Under the pieces are notes generated by a model that made no database searches, was not told the DNA's origin, and worked only from the letters and a program-made list of their open reading frames with translations. From Archangium sp. (GTDB taxonomy: Bacteria > Myxococcota > Myxococcia > Myxococcales > Myxococcaceae): a DNA stretch of 45,380 nucleotides. Both the position numbers and the translations under genes were made by a program. Positions 26,727-42,983 of the stretch are shown piece after piece (position 1 is the first letter of the stretch; the number at the start of each line of letters is the position of its first letter). Where the stretch lies: contig JAUYRZ010000122.1 of NCBI GenBank assembly GCA_030695565.1, forward strand, positions 1 through 45,380. The letters run 5' to 3'.

Positions 26727-29309
<2,583 letters not shown>

Positions 29310-32330: not shown

Positions 32331-34982
32331 ATGAGTGGCGCGCACGTCGTCCTGGTCATCGACGCCACTGCGCCCGCCGCGCCGGTGTTCGAGCTCGCGC
32401 GCCGCTTCTCGCCCGGCTTCACCCACGCGCACGTGGTCGCGCTCGACGGCGAACGGGCGCGGCCCGAAGTCGATCGCCTGCTCGCCACGCTCGAAGCGGC
32501 AAACCTCGAGTTCTCCATCGAAGAGTCGTTCGACGAGGCCCAGGTCGCGCTGGCGGCGCACCAGCACCGGGGCTCGCTGGTGGTGGTCGGCCCCTGGCCC
32601 AGCCGTCCACCCCGGGCGCGCGCGTTGGCGGTGCTCCAGTGGGTGGCCCGCTACGACGTGAACGTGCTCGCGGTGAGCACGCGCTGCGCAGCACTCGAAC
32701 CCGAGAACGGGCTCATCTGCGTCGCCCTCGATCCCGGCTCCAGCGCGCTGGCTGAGACGGCCGCCGCCGTCCGCGAGCTGCCGCGGGTGAAGAAGGTGGC
32801 CATCCTGATGCGGGGCACGCTCCCCGACACGGCCGAGCCCACCTTGCGCGCGCTGTTCCCCGCGCACGAGCTCGAGCTCATCGCAGCAGGAGAACTCGAG
32901 CCGGCCGAACTCGCACAAGGCGCGCACGCGCGTCACGCCGAGTTGTTGGTGGTGCCCAGTGCCGACGTGTCTGCCGGCAGCTTGATGAGCAGCATCTTCT
33001 CCGGGCAGGCGCTCAACGACACGCCGTTGCCGGTGCTGATTCTTCATCACGACGCCGCCTCCACCGGGCTGTTCGCCGAGCGGCTCTCGGCGACCGACAC
33101 CGTGCAGGTGCCGGGGCTGCCTCTGCGCCTGCTGGTCGAGCGCTCGAGCGCGTTGGGCCGCGCTGCGCTCCCCGAGAAGGAGACCTTCTTCCTGGTGGGC
33201 GCCGAGCAGCTCGGCCCGCTCGCGCACGTCGACGGCGTGGTGCAGGTGCCGCAGGCGTGGTTGCCCCCGCAGGCCAGCTCCTTCGCGTTGAGCGCCGCGG
33301 GCTCACCCACGCCGGTGGCGAGCGCGATGGTGCTGCGGGGCAAGCCGCTGGTGCTGCTCGACGCCCGCTTTCCCGTCGAGGCGCTCACCGACGTCGAGCC
33401 CTTCGCGTTGGAGCACACCATCGTGGTGGTGCGGCTTCGGGCTGATCAACCGCTCGAGACCGTGCGCACGCGGTTCGATGCCGCCGCGCCCTGGGGTGGG
33501 CCGGTGCCGGTGCTCGACGCCAGCGCCTTCCTCGCCGACGGCGGCGCCGGTGACGTCTCCGAGCTGGTCGACGGGGTTCGCCTGCAACGCCTCGCGCTCG
33601 AGCTGTTGATGCGGGGCGCGCCGGTGGTGTCCATCATCACGCCTTCGGGCCCTGAGCCGCGTTCGCCCGCGTTCAGCACCTGGACCGCCTCGTCGTTGCG
33701 CGCGCGCAGCCCGACCATGCGGCTGAGCAGTCCGCCCGTGCTGGCCCCTGATGACGAGGCGCGGTGGCGGCTGCGCACCCAGGCGCCGCTGGTGCAAGGG
33801 CATCGCGTCACGCTCGAGCTGGAGAACTCGGCGGCGCGTCAGGCGCTGCTCGCCTCCATCGCCGACGCGCGCGAGCGCATTCATTGGCAGTCGTACATGG
33901 TCGACGACGACGCCGTCTCGGAGGAGGTGGCCGACGCGTTGCGCCAGGCCGCCGCGCGGGGCGTGAAGGTGCGCGTGCTGGTCGACGCGCTCTACAGCCT
34001 GCACCAGGCGTACTTCACCCGGAACCCCGTGCTCGAGCGCCTCGGCGCTGCGCCCAACGTCGAGGTGCTCGCTTCGCGGCCGCTGTCGGGGCTCCCACAG
34101 ATCGTCGATCTCAAGCAGCGCAATCACCGCAAGCTGCGCTGCATCGATCGCCGCCTCGCCACGGTGAGCGGGCGCAACCTGGGCGCTGCGTACTACCGCG
34201 GCTTCAGCGAGCTCGAGCTGACCAGCGCGACACCGTTTCACGAGGTGCCGTGGCTCGATGCGGGTGTGGCCTTCGAAGGGCCGTTGGTAGAAGCGGTCGA
34301 CCGTTCTTTCCTCGCCGACTGGCTGCGAGCGGGCGGTGAACCCTTCGAGGTCTCTCCCAGCCCCCCCGCGGGCACGATGGCCTGCAGGCTGGTGCTGCAT
34401 CAGGGGCTGGAAGACGCGTACACGCTCGACACCCAGCTCGAGCTCATCCGCAGCGCGCAGAAGCGCCTGGTGATGGTGAACACGTTTCCGCTGGTGCTCG
34501 AGCTTCAGCGTGCGCTGGTGGCCGCGGTGCAGCGGGGGGTTCGGGTGCAGTGTCTGTTCGGCAGTGTGCTGCCGCGGTGGGGCGATGATCAGCCCTTCGG
34601 CCGTGGCGCGTTGCGCTCCCTGGCAGATGAGCTCGTACGCGCGCGCATGAGCCCGGTGCTGCGCGCCGGAGCGGAAGGGTTTCAGTACATGGTGGCCGCC
34701 GCGGGCCTCGGGCCGGTGTTCACCCACGTGCACGCGAAGCTGCTGGTGCGCGATGAAGACACGGTGGCCGTGGGCAGCGCCAACGCCGACGTGACCTCGG
34801 CGTATTGGGAGAGCGAGGCGGTGCTGCTGGTGCACGATCAAGGCTTCGCGCGGTCGGCGCTCGCCGCGTTGGAGCCGTTGATGACCAGCGCGCGGCCCGT
34901 CGACTTGCGCACGCCGGGTTGGAAAGAACTCGAGGCCCGCCGCGCGTGGCTCAGCCGCAACTGGCCCACGCTTTTCCCTTGA
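32331..34982 (+). CDS. Universal-stress-domain/phospholipase D fusion protein
   Basis: 883 residues. The N-terminal about 245 residues resemble two UspA-type alpha/beta domains (AHVVLVIDATAPAAPVFELA, LVVVGPWPSRPP, and LLVVPSADVSAGSLMSSIFSG with the GSxxxxI-like phosphate loop). A less clear alpha/beta middle part follows (about 260-480). The C-terminal part (about 500-883) is a two-motif phospholipase D/cardiolipin synthase: HxKx4D at H599-K601-D606 (HRKLRCID) followed by SGRNLG, and H801-K803-D808 (HAKLLVRD) followed by GSANAD. No transmembrane segment or signal peptide is visible, unlike most cardiolipin synthases. Activity may be phosphatidyl transfer or hydrolysis. The 210-bp gap upstream holds no recognised feature other than its promoter and that of ppdK. 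Confidence 0.87.
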   Translation: MSGAHVVLVIDATAPAAPVFELARRFSPGFTHAHVVALDGERARPEVDRLLATLEAANLEFSIEESFDEAQVALAAHQHRGSLVVVGPWPSRPPRARALAVLQWVARYDVNVLAVSTRCAALEPENGLICVALDPGSSALAETAAAVRELPRVKKVAILMRGTLPDTAEPTLRALFPAHELELIAAGELEPAELAQGAHARHAELLVVPSADVSAGSLMSSIFSGQALNDTPLPVLILHHDAASTGLFAERLSATDTVQVPGLPLRLLVERSSALGRAALPEKETFFLVGAEQLGPLAHVDGVVQVPQAWLPPQASSFALSAAGSPTPVASAMVLRGKPLVLLDARFPVEALTDVEPFALEHTIVVVRLRADQPLETVRTRFDAAAPWGGPVPVLDASAFLADGGAGDVSELVDGVRLQRLALELLMRGAPVVSIITPSGPEPRSPAFSTWTASSLRARSPTMRLSSPPVLAPDDEARWRLRTQAPLVQGHRVTLELENSAARQALLASIADARERIHWQSYMVDDDAVSEEVADALRQAAARGVKVRVLVDALYSLHQAYFTRNPVLERLGAAPNVEVLASRPLSGLPQIVDLKQRNHRKLRCIDRRLATVSGRNLGAAYYRGFSELELTSATPFHEVPWLDAGVAFEGPLVEAVDRSFLADWLRAGGEPFEVSPSPPAGTMACRLVLHQGLEDAYTLDTQLELIRSAQKRLVMVNTFPLVLELQRALVAAVQRGVRVQCLFGSVLPRWGDDQPFGRGALRSLADELVRARMSPVLRAGAEGFQYMVAAAGLGPVFTHVHAKLLVRDEDTVAVGSANADVTSAYWESEAVLLVHDQGFARSALAALEPLMTSARPVDLRTPGWKELEARRAWLSRNWPTLFP

Positions 34983-35040
34983 AGTCGCCACTCCCCATCC
35001 AATCGGGTCCGGCGCTGGGGGAGGCGTGGTACGAGCGCGC

Positions 35041-36414
35041 ATGCCGAAGACGATTGCCGCCACGCCCCGTGCTGTCCTCGTGGGGGTTCAGTTGCCCAGC
35101 GTCTCCGACGTCGACCACGAAGGAGATCTCGCTGAGCTGGGCCGCCTGGTGCACACGCTCGGGTACGAGGTGGTGGGGAAGGTCACCCAGAAGCGCGCAG
35201 GGCTCGCCTCGGGCACGGTGGTCGGTGAAGGCAAGCTGATGGAGCTGGCGAAGCTCACCGGCGGCAGCGGCGAGACCTTCACCGGTGCGCCGGAGCGGAA
35301 GTCGAAGGCGCGCGACAAGTGGGCCGAAGAGAACGAACCCGAAGAGGTCCTGGAAGAAGAGGAACCCGAGACGTTCGATGAAGACGGCGATCCCACCGCG
35401 AAGGCGACGGTGGTGGTGGTCGATCATGAGCTGTCTCCCGCCCAGGCGCGGAACCTCGAGCGGGCCACGGGCGCCACCGTGCTCGATCGCACGGGCGTCA
35501 TCGTCGACATCTTTCATCGGCACGCGAAGAGCCGTGAAGCGCGCATGCAGGTGGAGATCGCCCGCCTCAACTACGTCGCCCCCCGCATGCGCGAGTCGAC
35601 GGGCGGCACCGAGCGCCAGCAGGGCCGGGGCGCTGGTGAGTCTTCGCTCGAGCTCGATCGCCGGAAGATCCGCGATCGCATCGCCGAGCTGAAGGAGCAG
35701 CTGGCGCTCATTCACGCGGATCAGGATCAGCGCCGCTACGCGCGTAAGGATCAGCTGCGCGTGGCGCTGGTGGGGTACACCAACGCCGGCAAGTCGTCGC
35801 TCATGCGCGCGCTCACCGGCAGTGAAGTGTTCGTGGCCGATCGGCTGTTCGCCACGCTCGACACCACCGTGCGCGCGCTGCAGCCCGAGACGCGGCCTCG
35901 CATTCTGGTGTCCGACACGGTCGGGTTCATCAAGAAGCTGCCGCACGATCTGGTCGCGTCGTTCAAGTCGACGCTCGATGAAGCGCTCGAGGCGTCGTTG
36001 CTGCTCTACACGGTGGATGCGGCGGATCCGACGTGTGAAGCGCAGCTCGAGGTGACCCGCGGGGTGTTGCGGGAGATCGGCGCTGAGGCGGTGCCGAGCC
36101 TGCTGTTGTTGAACAAGGCCGACCGGCTCGATCCGAAACGGCGCGCGGAGCTGCTGGAGAAGTATCCCGAAGCCATCGTGCTCTCGGCGCATGCGCCGGA
36201 GGACGTGGGCGCGCTGCGGCAGACCATCATCGATCACTTCGAGAAGTCGATGGTCGATGCGCACCTGGTGATTCCGTACGCGCAGCAGGCGCTCATCGCG
36301 CAGATCTACGAGAACGCTCGCGTGGTCACCGAGGAGTTCGATGAGACGGGCCGCAAGCTGCTGGTGCGCGCGTTGCCGGCGGCGGTGGCCAAGCTCACTC
36401 GTTTGTTGGCGTAG
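35041..36414 (+). CDS. hflX: GTPase HflX
   Basis: 457 residues. Ribosome-associated GTPase that can split stalled or idle ribosomes. The HflX N-terminal domain (about 10-235) includes the family glycine-rich segment (ARLNYVAPRM, then ESTGGTERQQGRGAGES) and a coiled region. G motifs: G1 GYTNAGKSS (245-253), G3 DTVGF (292-296), G4 NKAD (358-361), and a G5-like SAHAP. Unusual: an acidic insertion of about 48 residues (about 73-121, EEVLEEEEPETFDED) sits inside the N-terminal domain. The ATG at 35041 is preferred over a GTG at 35026. The gene follows the universal-stress/PLD gene after 58 bp on the same strand. Confidence 0.93.
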   Translation: MPKTIAATPRAVLVGVQLPSVSDVDHEGDLAELGRLVHTLGYEVVGKVTQKRAGLASGTVVGEGKLMELAKLTGGSGETFTGAPERKSKARDKWAEENEPEEVLEEEEPETFDEDGDPTAKATVVVVDHELSPAQARNLERATGATVLDRTGVIVDIFHRHAKSREARMQVEIARLNYVAPRMRESTGGTERQQGRGAGESSLELDRRKIRDRIAELKEQLALIHADQDQRRYARKDQLRVALVGYTNAGKSSLMRALTGSEVFVADRLFATLDTTVRALQPETRPRILVSDTVGFIKKLPHDLVASFKSTLDEALEASLLLYTVDAADPTCEAQLEVTRGVLREIGAEAVPSLLLLNKADRLDPKRRAELLEKYPEAIVLSAHAPEDVGALRQTIIDHFEKSMVDAHLVIPYAQQALIAQIYENARVVTEEFDETGRKLLVRALPAAVAKLTRLLA

Positions 36415-37852: not shown

Positions 37853-39391
37853 GTGCGCGAGCGCCTCGGCAAGTACGAGCTGGTGACGTTGATGTCGGTC
37901 GGTGGGATGGCCGAGCTGCAGCTGGCCTCGATGCCGGGCCCGGGGGGCTTCCGCAAGGCCGTGGCGGTCAAGCAGGTGCTGCCCGAGTTTCGAGATGACC
38001 CCCACTTCGTGCAGTGTTTCCTCGAAGAGGCGCGCATCACCGCCGCGCTCACGCACCCTCACCTCGCGCAGGTCTTCGACCTGGGTGAAGTCGATGGCGA
38101 GCTCTACCTCGCGATGGAGTTCATCGCCGGCGTCGACCTCGCCCGCATCGTGCGCGCGGGCGTGAGCCCCCGGCTCCCCCCCGGCTTCGTGGTTCGCGTG
38201 GCCCGCGACATCGCACTCGCGTTGGCGTCGGCCCACGGGCTGAGCGACCCCGTCACCGGAGAATCGCGCGGCGTCGTTCACCGCGACATCAACCCTCGCA
38301 ACGTGATGGTCACCTTCGATGGAGTGGTGAAGGTGATCGACTTCGGCCTCGCGCGTTTTCGCGGCCGGCGCGTGAGGACCGCCGTGGGCACCGTGCGCGG
38401 CACGCCGCAGTACATGGCGCCGGAGCAACTCCTCGATCAGCCCCTCGACGCGCGCACCGATCTCTACGGCCTGGGCGTGGTGATGTGGGAGCTGCTCGCG
38501 GGCCGCTATTTCGCCGCCGTCGGCATTCAAGATGTCGAAGCACGCCTCAACCGGGGTGAGCCCGCGCCGCGCGTGCGCACGGTGGTGCCCGAGGTGCCGG
38601 TCGAGCTCGACGAGATCATCGCGCTCTGTCTTTCCACCGACCCCGAGGCGCGGTTCGCCTCCGCGCGTGATCTGGGCCGGGCGCTGGAGCGCTGCGGCGT
38701 CGAGCTCTTCGACGAAGGCCGGCTCAGCGAGTTCCTGGCGGAGCGCCTGCCGCAGACGCGCAGCATCGTGCGGCGGCTCGTCGCGCTCGCCGAACAACCC
38801 GACGCGAGCACCGAAGCGGTCAAGCAAGAGCTCCAGGCGCTGCGCAAGGCAGACCTCCGCCCGGCGCCCCAGGCCCCGGTGGCGACCTCGTCCATCGCGC
38901 ACCCCGACCTGCCGTCGGTGATCGTCGCGCCCGACGCTCCACCCGAGACGCCGCGCCTCGCGGAGGTGAACGGCTTCGTGGTGTTGATCGCGGCCTGCCT
39001 GGTGGCGCTGCTGGTGGGGATGGGCTTTCAGTATTTCGAGGAGCCGGCCCTCGAGCGCTCGCCTGCGTTCACCAATCCAGAAGTCATGAAGCGCGCGCGC
39101 AAGGCGCTCCTGGCAGGAGACCCGCTCGATGCCCGCGCGATCGCGGTGCAGTGCATCGGGCCCCAGGGCAAGTGCGCTGGCCTCGACACGCTGCTGGGCG
39201 AGATCGACGTGGCGCTCGCGCAGAGCCCGTGTGGCACCGAAGCGCAAGCGAAGGCGATCGTCGACGAAGCGAGCGAACTCGCCCCTGAGGCCGCTGCGGC
39301 CCGGCTGCTTCAGTGCGTCGCGGGCAAGAGGCTGCACCCGATCGCGGGCGCCGCGCTGCAACGGCTGGAGCTCTGGCAACCGACCGAGTGA
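37853..39391 (+). CDS. Transmembrane Ser/Thr protein kinase with atypical HRDIN loop
   Basis: 512 residues from a GTG at 37853. Kinase domain about 7-270: Gly loop MSVGGMAELQLA, K40 in VAVKQVL, catalytic loop VVHRDINPRN (D145; N147 in place of the usual Lys), DFG at D163, and MAPEQ. A linker leads to one transmembrane helix (about 374-395) and an extracytoplasmic part of about 115 residues with four Cys (CIGPQGKCAG and others). The catalytic Asp and metal ligands remain, so activity is likely although the HRDxK Lys is absent. Substrate unknown. Convergent with the DUF3592 gene (10 bp). Confidence 0.9.
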   Translation: MRERLGKYELVTLMSVGGMAELQLASMPGPGGFRKAVAVKQVLPEFRDDPHFVQCFLEEARITAALTHPHLAQVFDLGEVDGELYLAMEFIAGVDLARIVRAGVSPRLPPGFVVRVARDIALALASAHGLSDPVTGESRGVVHRDINPRNVMVTFDGVVKVIDFGLARFRGRRVRTAVGTVRGTPQYMAPEQLLDQPLDARTDLYGLGVVMWELLAGRYFAAVGIQDVEARLNRGEPAPRVRTVVPEVPVELDEIIALCLSTDPEARFASARDLGRALERCGVELFDEGRLSEFLAERLPQTRSIVRRLVALAEQPDASTEAVKQELQALRKADLRPAPQAPVATSSIAHPDLPSVIVAPDAPPETPRLAEVNGFVVLIAACLVALLVGMGFQYFEEPALERSPAFTNPEVMKRARKALLAGDPLDARAIAVQCIGPQGKCAGLDTLLGEIDVALAQSPCGTEAQAKAIVDEASELAPEAAAARLLQCVAGKRLHPIAGAALQRLELWQPTE

Positions 39392-41453: not shown

Positions 41454-42983
41454 TCATCGCGAGGTCTTGATGTCCGGGTTCTTGCCGCCGCTGCCACCGG
41501 TGGGGGGCTTCACCACGGCGACCTTCTTCTTCATCGCCAGCGAAAGCGTGGGCCCGGTCATGTCGGTGAGCGTCGCTTCAGCCGGCTCGTAGCCTTCGGC
41601 GGTCAGCCGCACCGCGACGGGCAACTTCACCTTTTCAACGTGCGCATCGAAGGGCGTCTGACCCACGTTGGCGCCGGCCAGCTCGACGCTGGCCCCACTG
41701 GGCTCGGAGACGATGTGCACCACCAGGGCCCTGGGTTGCGGGTTGGCCTCGACAGGGGCTGCCACCACGGGCGGAGGCACCCCCTCGACCACCGGCTTCA
41801 CGTCGGGCCGGGTGCCCAGATAGACGCCTGCGCTGATGCCCAGCAGCAGCACCACCGCGCCCACCACTTTGGGCAACGGCGAAGACTTCGAAGGCGGTGG
41901 CAACAGCTGCGTGCCGTGCACCTGGGTGGCATTGCCCGGGGGCAACTTGTTGCGATCGACCACCGTCGCGCCGCTCGCCGCGTTGGCCGGTTTGGACAAC
42001 CCGCCCACGTCGAGATCGGTCAGGCCCGAGTCTTCTTCGAAGAAGCGCGGGTCGGCCTCCTTCGCGATGCGCTCGGCGTACAGGTCCTGCATGAAGGCGG
42101 CGAGGCTCGACGACGACGTGGGGATCGCGTTCTGCAGCGCGAAGTCTTCCAGCGCGTTTCGCAGCTCGGCGGCGTCCTGGTAGCGCTCGGCCGGATCTTT
42201 GGAGAGCGCCTTGAGGGTGATGGGGTCGAGACCCGCGGGCACCGACGGCTCGACGCTGGAGGGCGCGGGCACCTGGCAGGCGCGCACCAGGCGCTGCGTG
42301 GCGAGATCGTTCTCGCCCTTGAACAGGCGGCGGCCGGTCAGCTGCTCCCACAACACGATGCCCAGCGCGAACACGTCGCTGCGGCAGTCGAGCTCTTCAC
42401 CCTGTGCCTGCTCGGGCGACATGTACGGGAACTTGCCCTTCAAGATGCCGGTGGCGGTGTGTTGCGCGCGGCCGGCCGCCTTGGCCACGCCGAAGTCGAT
42501 CAACTTCACCGAACCATCGAAGCCGATGAGCACGTTCTGGGGGCTCACGTCGCGGTGCACCAGGCCCAGCGGCACGCCTTTGGCGTCGCGCGCCTTGTGG
42601 GCGAAGTCGAGGCCGGCCGCGGCGTCGGCGATGATCTTCAAGATGAACCCGATGGGGATGCCCTTGCCCACCGCGGCGGCGCGCTTCTCGATGCGGCGCA
42701 CGTCTTCACCGGCGACGTACTCCATCTCGATGTAGTGAACGCCGGCCTCCACGCCGAACTCGTTGATCCGCGCGATGTTCGGGTGATCGAGGCGCATGGT
42801 GATCTTCGCTTCGTCGCGGAACATGGTGAAGAACTCTTCGTCTTCCACCAGGTGCGGCAAGATGCGTTTGAGCACCACCAGCTTCTCGAAGTCGTCCTGG
42901 CCTTTCTTGGCGAGCAGGACCTGGCCCATCCCTCCGGACGCGATCTTCTTCAGCAGCTGGTAGCGCCCGAAGGGGATGCCCAT
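41454..42983 (-). CDS. Transmembrane Ser/Thr protein kinase with PEGA domain
   Basis: 509 residues. Kinase domain about 7-280: Gly loop IASGGMGQVLLA, K39 in VVLKRIL, catalytic loop VHRDVSPQN (D145; S147 in place of Lys), DFG at D163, and MSPEQ. A transmembrane helix (about 371-389) leads to an extracytoplasmic Pro-rich stretch and a PEGA domain (about 419-486, HIVSEPSGASVELAG and LTAEGYEPAEATL), a presumed surface-polymer-binding fold. Kinases with HRDVSPQN are common in myxobacteria and are taken as active. Likely an envelope-sensing kinase. It is divergent from the response regulator gene (189-bp gap). Confidence 0.92.
   Translation of the reverse strand: MGIPFGRYQLLKKIASGGMGQVLLAKKGQDDFEKLVVLKRILPHLVEDEEFFTMFRDEAKITMRLDHPNIARINEFGVEAGVHYIEMEYVAGEDVRRIEKRAAAVGKGIPIGFILKIIADAAAGLDFAHKARDAKGVPLGLVHRDVSPQNVLIGFDGSVKLIDFGVAKAAGRAQHTATGILKGKFPYMSPEQAQGEELDCRSDVFALGIVLWEQLTGRRLFKGENDLATQRLVRACQVPAPSSVEPSVPAGLDPITLKALSKDPAERYQDAAELRNALEDFALQNAIPTSSSSLAAFMQDLYAERIAKEADPRFFEEDSGLTDLDVGGLSKPANAASGATVVDRNKLPPGNATQVHGTQLLPPPSKSSPLPKVVGAVVLLLGISAGVYLGTRPDVKPVVEGVPPPVVAAPVEANPQPRALVVHIVSEPSGASVELAGANVGQTPFDAHVEKVKLPVAVRLTAEGYEPAEATLTDMTGPTLSLAMKKKVAVVKPPTGGSGGKNPDIKTSR

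Follow-up and report, generated by a model that had tools for sequence, protein, structure and literature searches.

A degenerate tandem Usp-like unit and a two-motif phospholipase D of cardiolipin-synthase type in one protein of Archangium sp.

The window, i.e. the whole stretch of 45,380 nucleotides that was analysed, carries on its forward strand a gene for a protein of 883 amino acids, P0001, in which a tandem Usp fold and a two-motif phospholipase D (PLD) stand in a single chain, an observation that we confirm here. L and G numbers designate the loci and genomes of its relatives. The features of the locus are the following:

32331..34982, + strand: whole gene of the 883-aa protein P0001 (ORF with an ATG start; relatives align over the full length)
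32331..32696, + strand: Usp-like domain 1, residues 1-122 (hhalign, Pfam Usp in the relative L020, structural match)
32697..33065, + strand: Usp-like domain 2, residues 123-245 (hhalign, PDB profile match to 4wny at 6.8e-9, structural match)
33066..33788, + strand: middle region, residues 246-486, conserved and of no known family (alignment of relatives, PDB profile search)
33789..34979, + strand: PLD / cardiolipin-synthase-type domain, residues 487-883 (PLDc_2 9e-25; bac_cardiolipin 79 bits, residues 486-855)
34125..34178, + strand: first HKD motif, H599-D606 to N616 (HRKLRCID...SGRN; motif and alignment)
34731..34784, + strand: second HKD motif, H801-D808 to N818 (HAKLLVRD...GSAN; motif and alignment)
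35080..36414, + strand: neighbour, separate from the Usp-PLD gene, the gene of the GTPase HflX (TIGR03156, 357 bits, above cut-off)

The original prediction had placed in this reading frame two HxKx4D motifs and no membrane anchor. Both points hold: the motifs begin with H599 and H801, and the Kyte-Doolittle mean over 19 residues peaks at 1.44, staying below 1.6 throughout, so that no anchor is seen. A promoter and terminator scan gave nothing above chance. Elsewhere in the window, an 860-aa ORF (26727-29309, - strand; GIDLGTTNSACAV) shows by eye a PilZ-like N-terminus and an Hsp70/DnaK-like ATPase, and two protein-kinase-like ORFs near the gene (37853-39391, + strand, and 41454-42983, - strand) carry Ser/Thr kinase motifs, also read by eye.

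Full-length relatives 74, 73 and 54% identical to P0001 (best segment) lie on three MAG contigs, two of Archangium sp. and one of a Myxococcales bacterium; these 3 loci are the yield of a whole-protein scan of contigs that took in other phyla and picks up close relatives only. Among the matches listed, relatives that include the N-terminal sequence occur in 29 of the 96 genomes of the window's family, all 29 being also strong matches to a profile of residues 1-484; the remaining family matches listed do not extend to the N-terminal side of residue 382 and are apparently other PLD proteins. When the 195 genomes of the phylum were scanned with the residues 1-484 profile, 38 matched at E <= 0.001, from which G037, G049, G138 and G144 were left out as weak (E 1.6e-7 to 8.6e-4). 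The survey for the same domain order therefore leaves 34 of the 195 genomes, and five of the 34 belong to families other than that of the window (f3, f7 and f25). The copies of G012 and G132 are incomplete, split at contig edges, and the alignment A1 of 29 family relatives omits G047 (later L081) and the split G012. Nothing matching residues 1-484 was seen on plasmids.

In a maximum-likelihood tree with 32 proteins (truncated L084 omitted; midpoint root, for drawing only), 26 rows (g1, g3 and g19; clade A) stand apart with full support from six (clade B), which are those of f3, f7 and f25 plus two rows from the window's own family (g7 and g13). Between P0001 and five clade-B proteins conservation is highest in the PLD half, with 46% identity against 20% for domain 1 and 17% for domain 2. 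A conserved PLD and a drifting Usp half are what one would expect if an enzyme has a regulatory part that adapts.

The C-terminal half of P0001 belongs to the phospholipase D superfamily: it matches the Pfam profile PLDc_2 at 87.5 bits (9e-25; cut-off 27), two or more HxKx4D motifs are present in all 33 sequences compared (P0001 and 32 relatives), and H599, K601, D606, H801, K803 and D808 are invariant among 27 aligned members. The best-scoring NCBIfam model, bac_cardiolipin (TIGR04265), covers the catalytic length in one stretch with 79 bits (80.1 in the genome search), which is far from its equivalog cut-off of 290; likewise ClsB (NF008427) reaches 73.7 bits for a cut-off of 281, and DISARM DrmC (NF038319) 61.8 bits, in two pieces, for a cut-off of 133. 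Three other loci of the same genome score 225, 218 and 213 bits to TIGR04265, all below cut-off; these being better cardiolipin-synthase candidates, P0001 is a divergent, additional member. When P0001 is aligned with three HKD proteins of its own genome, the similarity extends through the segment that separates the motifs, and the W-x-D...GP...F stretch is common to P0001 and two of these proteins. As far as sequence can tell, the enzyme half is cardiolipin-synthase-like, short of an assignment as cardiolipin synthase. Residues 703-742 (34437-34556 of the window) also give a sub-threshold match to the archaeal regulator TrmB (PF11495), seen in 26 of 27 members (best 4e-4), perhaps from a PLD-like fold common to both.

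A rival reading of P0001 is a nuclease or an anti-phage type HKD protein acting on nucleic acid with a phosphoesterase partner. Besides the DrmC score, PADLOC matches speak for this: the best for P0001 is to MkoB (4e-15) and the best for the clade-B protein L079 to DrmC (1.5e-16), the defence-model matches of Usp-PLD proteins being confined to DrmC/MkoB-type models. However, the Cls and ClsB models outscore DrmC and cover more length, and the defence scores lie far below the NCBIfam cut-offs. The gene neighbourhoods, described below, also bear on this reading.

The N-terminal half had been read as tandem UspA-type domains over residues about 1-245. In P0001 alone PF00582 has no match at E<=1, so that the HMM check proposed with the prediction gave a match for the PLD and, in this protein by itself, none for the Usp part; single-protein searches of Pfam, NCBIfam and PDB sequences all missed it, and it becomes visible only via the profiles of relatives. 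When the 27 aligned members were scanned one by one, 12 matched PF00582 at E<=5 (best 2.1e-6) and 15 did not. The 24-bit cut-off is exceeded in at least two members, i.e. the one with 2.1e-6 and L020, whose domain 1 (residues 1-101) reaches 28.3 bits (2.9e-6). L021 (21.1 bits), L081 (21.8), L017 (16.7) and L011 (16.2) stay below, the matches in L011 and L017 lying in the second domain. In a separate Pfam scan five of nine members had no Usp match, and among five clade-B proteins L081 is the only one with a match (domain 1, the 21.8 bits given above). Usp-type profile matches thus occur in relatives of both deep clades.

Comparison of profiles gives a clearer picture. Against a set of 16 Usp domains from the same genome, hhalign returns for residues 1-122 a probability of 94.3 (P 9.6e-8, 101 columns) and for residues 123-245 a probability of 93.5 (P 2.3e-7, C-terminal 75 columns only), with 0.6 for the middle region and 0.5 for the PLD region as negative controls. 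The two domains match each other weakly (24.7%). In a PDB profile search with residues 1-246 (23 rows) solved Usp structures rank first: 4wny (6.8e-9), 1wjg (7.7e-4) and 1tq8 (0.0042) for domain 2 and 2pfs (0.0054) for domain 1. From 0.06 on, the matches are mixed with unrelated proteins such as gelsolin and were taken as chance.

The whole-protein AlphaFold model, built from a 4-row alignment, is poor (mean pLDDT 42.1), with useful signal in the first ~240 residues only (52-84 in ten-residue blocks of residues 11-240). With this model Foldseek finds a tandem Usp protein first, then tandem Usp proteins mixed with cation-chloride cotransporters. In VIA-align, a comparison of residues 1-245 that barely covers the middle and PLD parts, model residues 2-241 superpose on Rv2623 with a Z of 15.1 (rmsd 3.6, 227 aligned), followed by UspE (Z 14.4), TTHA0350 (Z 13.3) and cation-chloride cotransporter domains (12.1 and below). 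Taken together, the Pfam matches of relatives, hhalign with its controls, the PDB profile matches and a superposition from a model of modest confidence bear out the tandem UspA-type reading, i.e. a Usp alpha/beta fold present twice.

Between the two halves, the third domain suspected at 260-480 is found as a conserved region of no known family (residues 246-486). It has 13 invariant columns in 18 diverse rows, among them D344, R368, R370, D396 and R417 (P0001 numbering). Its profile has no match at E<=10 among PDB sequences, which does not establish a new fold, and the region folded alone from its single sequence is uninterpretable (pLDDT 39.8).

The surroundings of the gene differ between groups of relatives. 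In all 18 g19 loci (every g19 genome in which the phylum scan found the gene) a MlaD gene lies upstream on the same strand, and in 15 of them the examined stretch also includes genes for two MlaE and two ABC ATPases, which complete the set (names from Pfam on L082, by position in the other g19 loci). MlaD ends no more than 35 nt from the match in 5 loci; in L082 it stands 15 nt from the called gene, in L097 a gap of 223 nt separates it from the match, and in the other 11 loci the distance is 1.1-8.0 kb. No MlaD was seen within the stretches examined of 3 g3, 5 g1 and 6 clade-B loci; confined to one genus, the Mla linkage could therefore be plain synteny. In clade B the stop of a calcineurin-like metallophosphoesterase gene overlaps the start codon of the Usp-PLD gene by 4 nt in 5 of the 6 loci examined (L073, L074, L075, L079 and L081; truncated L084 not counted), the shared sequence being ATGA in four loci and GTGA in the fifth and the phosphoesterase being named by Pfam in L079 and by similarity in the others. 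L076 has no overlapping phosphoesterase. Two genomes with this pair, G040 and G047, belong to the window's own family, which could reflect horizontal transfer.

A second type of phosphoesterase, like putative RNA lariat debranching enzymes, lies downstream on the same strand in 15 of 18 g19 loci and is itself followed by a DEAD-box helicase; that of L083 (12126-12974, + strand) matches 4peh ('RNA lariat debranching enzyme, putative') at 3.3e-31 with phmmer. This phosphoesterase and helicase are no pointer to lipids. Recurring in most g19 loci, they are in keeping with the nuclease or anti-phage reading raised above, as is the weak match of the clade-B phosphoesterase to anti-phage phosphoesterase models. 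But the Mla genes upstream in g19 argue the other way and, with the profile scores, leave an action on nucleic acid very improbable.

The window's copy adjoins neither Mla genes nor the clade-B phosphoesterase. It is flanked by a divergent gene read by eye as pyruvate-phosphate dikinase and by HflX, which starts within ~100 nt of the Usp-PLD stop (a longer frame starts at 35026); the lipid link of this copy is therefore borrowed from its relatives. HflX is also downstream on the same strand in L005 (1.6 kb off) and was unseen in the examined stretches of the other three g1 loci. The same genome has a MlaD ortholog (53% identical) on another contig and two matches to the clade-B phosphoesterase (38% and 29% identity) on other contigs, and gave no match to the g19 debranching-like phosphoesterase in a search run without a positive control. 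L007 has a relative of the clade-B phosphoesterase (37%) on the opposite strand, at a distance of 567 nt downstream from its Usp-PLD gene. Overall the gene context of the relatives suggests lipid or phosphoester chemistry, and the recurring layout, often beside lipid-transport or phosphoesterase genes, suggests that the enzyme acts on membrane lipids and has its regulatory part built in.

What the Usp unit might bind was approached through the loop of the ATP-binding UspFG type, scored as G-2X-G-(8-10)X-G(S/T/N) with G-2X-G-9X-G(S/T/N) as canonical form. Among the 33 sequences, which include L084 lacking most of the Usp region, the pattern occurs in the Usp region of one (L011, off-site), compared with 8 of 16 Usp domains of the own genome, and the canonical loop is at the expected place in none. 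P0001 thus falls outside the ATP-binding Usp subgroup as defined by this loop. The original prediction of a stress nucleotide module tied to a lipid enzyme survives in part: the neighbourhoods of relatives support the lipid link and make a functional coupling plausible, and the canonical ATP loop is missing. Two other positions are retained. D11 at the end of strand 1, a nucleotide-site aspartate according to Table 1 of PMC3673472 and our own alignment, is D in 26 of 33 sequences and E in 6, and G87 is kept in 30 of 33.

Taken to its full extent, with a Usp module that senses ATP or AMP and so couples lipid synthesis to the energy state, the prediction is opposed by this missing loop and seems decidedly unlikely. 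It has on its side good structural matches to the ATP-binding Rv2623 and TTHA0350, as well as two precedents: Table 1 of PMC3673472 includes degenerate Usp domains that still bind ATP (TTHA0350 and KPN01444), and the Usp-like domains of KCC1 and NKCC1, of the same fold, are described in PMC8280820 as binding adenine nucleotides, with no shift for two KCC3b variants. Since degenerate-motif Usp proteins appear in that table both with and without ATP, loop loss settles nothing on nucleotide binding.

The missing loop would also fit a tandem Usp unit that is a mere dimerisation or scaffold part without ligand, P0001 then being a constitutive Cls/PLD-type enzyme. Domains 1 and 2 are indeed among the least conserved parts of the protein, with 4 invariant columns in 23 rows. 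Retention of the D11 and G87 positions and the Usp-type profile matches in both deep clades count against such a ligand-free unit, and we regard it as somewhat doubtful. For E. coli UspE, PMC4750201 describes a hydrophobic pocket with density that was modelled as the 3-hydroxymyristoyl group of an unidentified ligand. Because of this density and of the nucleotide binding by KCC1 and NKCC1, a lipid or nucleotide ligand for the Usp unit of P0001 is, by analogy, no more than a fair guess.

We therefore favour, with a probability of about 45%, a reading of P0001 as a phosphatidyltransferase that carries its degenerate tandem Usp unit as a regulatory part, is regulated by a ligand and is tied to phospholipid homeostasis. 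The enzyme would be soluble or peripheral, cytoplasmic and of the cardiolipin-synthase/PLD type. PLD enzymes have a single active site, built from both HKD motifs, and work via a phosphatidyl-histidine intermediate; the residues are present in P0001, which would act in the same way. Comparable to UspE or to the regulatory C-terminal domain of cation-chloride cotransporters, the Usp unit may have a role in regulation and docking, in which a small hydrophobic or nucleotide ligand would alter enzyme activity or membrane recruitment, and the conserved middle region would link unit and enzyme. Judging from the neighbourhoods, the product may feed phospholipid homeostasis, with the Mla transporter in one clade, and in the other the co-translated metallophosphoesterase may dephosphorylate or hydrolyse it. 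The narrower proposal of a ligand-gated phospholipid remodelling, in which the Usp unit, of the sort controlling animal chloride cotransporters, would sense a lipid or nucleotide and thereby switch a Cls-type enzyme working with Mla (clade A) or with the co-translated phosphoesterase (clade B), is unlikely as it stands. If true, it would mean direct control of bacterial membrane lipid composition by a single protein, and would show a possible coupling of lipid head-group chemistry to lipid transport in myxobacteria. To our knowledge the biochemical role of Usp proteins is still largely open. A Usp unit on an enzyme with a measurable reaction offers a read-out, in which a candidate ligand is added and phosphatidyl transfer is measured.

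Within the literature and genomes searched, where relatives appeared only in the window's own phylum, the architecture is not one already described and common across bacteria: P0001 combines known parts in a new way that is limited to its lineage, and adds a third region of no family. No recognisable paper on a Usp-PLD fusion was found in the open-licence literature, judged from titles and abstract openings. Published fusions also place Usp on signalling or membrane functions, the partners listed in the legend of Fig. 2 of PMC3673472 being kinase, CBS, TrkA, KdpD, antiporter, CLC and amino-acid permease, but neither this legend nor the consulted part of PMC12159084 has a PLD enzyme among them.

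On the enzyme side, bacterial cardiolipin synthase (TIGR04265) and ClsB have the same two HKD motifs in the same order and match P0001 over nearly the whole catalytic length, and ClsB is not known to have a transmembrane anchor, none being seen in P0001 either; P0001 differs by ~485 extra N-terminal residues and by scores far below the cut-offs. On the Usp side, UspE, Rv2623, TTHA0350 and AF1760 have, as P0001, two Usp folds in tandem over ~240 residues (Z 13-15), but they are stand-alone proteins, whereas P0001 has lost the ATP loop and has an enzyme attached. The regulatory C-terminal domain of cation-chloride cotransporters (KCC, NKCC and the prokaryotic 3g40; Z ~10-12) is likewise a degenerate Usp-like tandem, carried by a protein that acts at membranes, although it sits on a transporter and at the end of the chain opposite to that in P0001.
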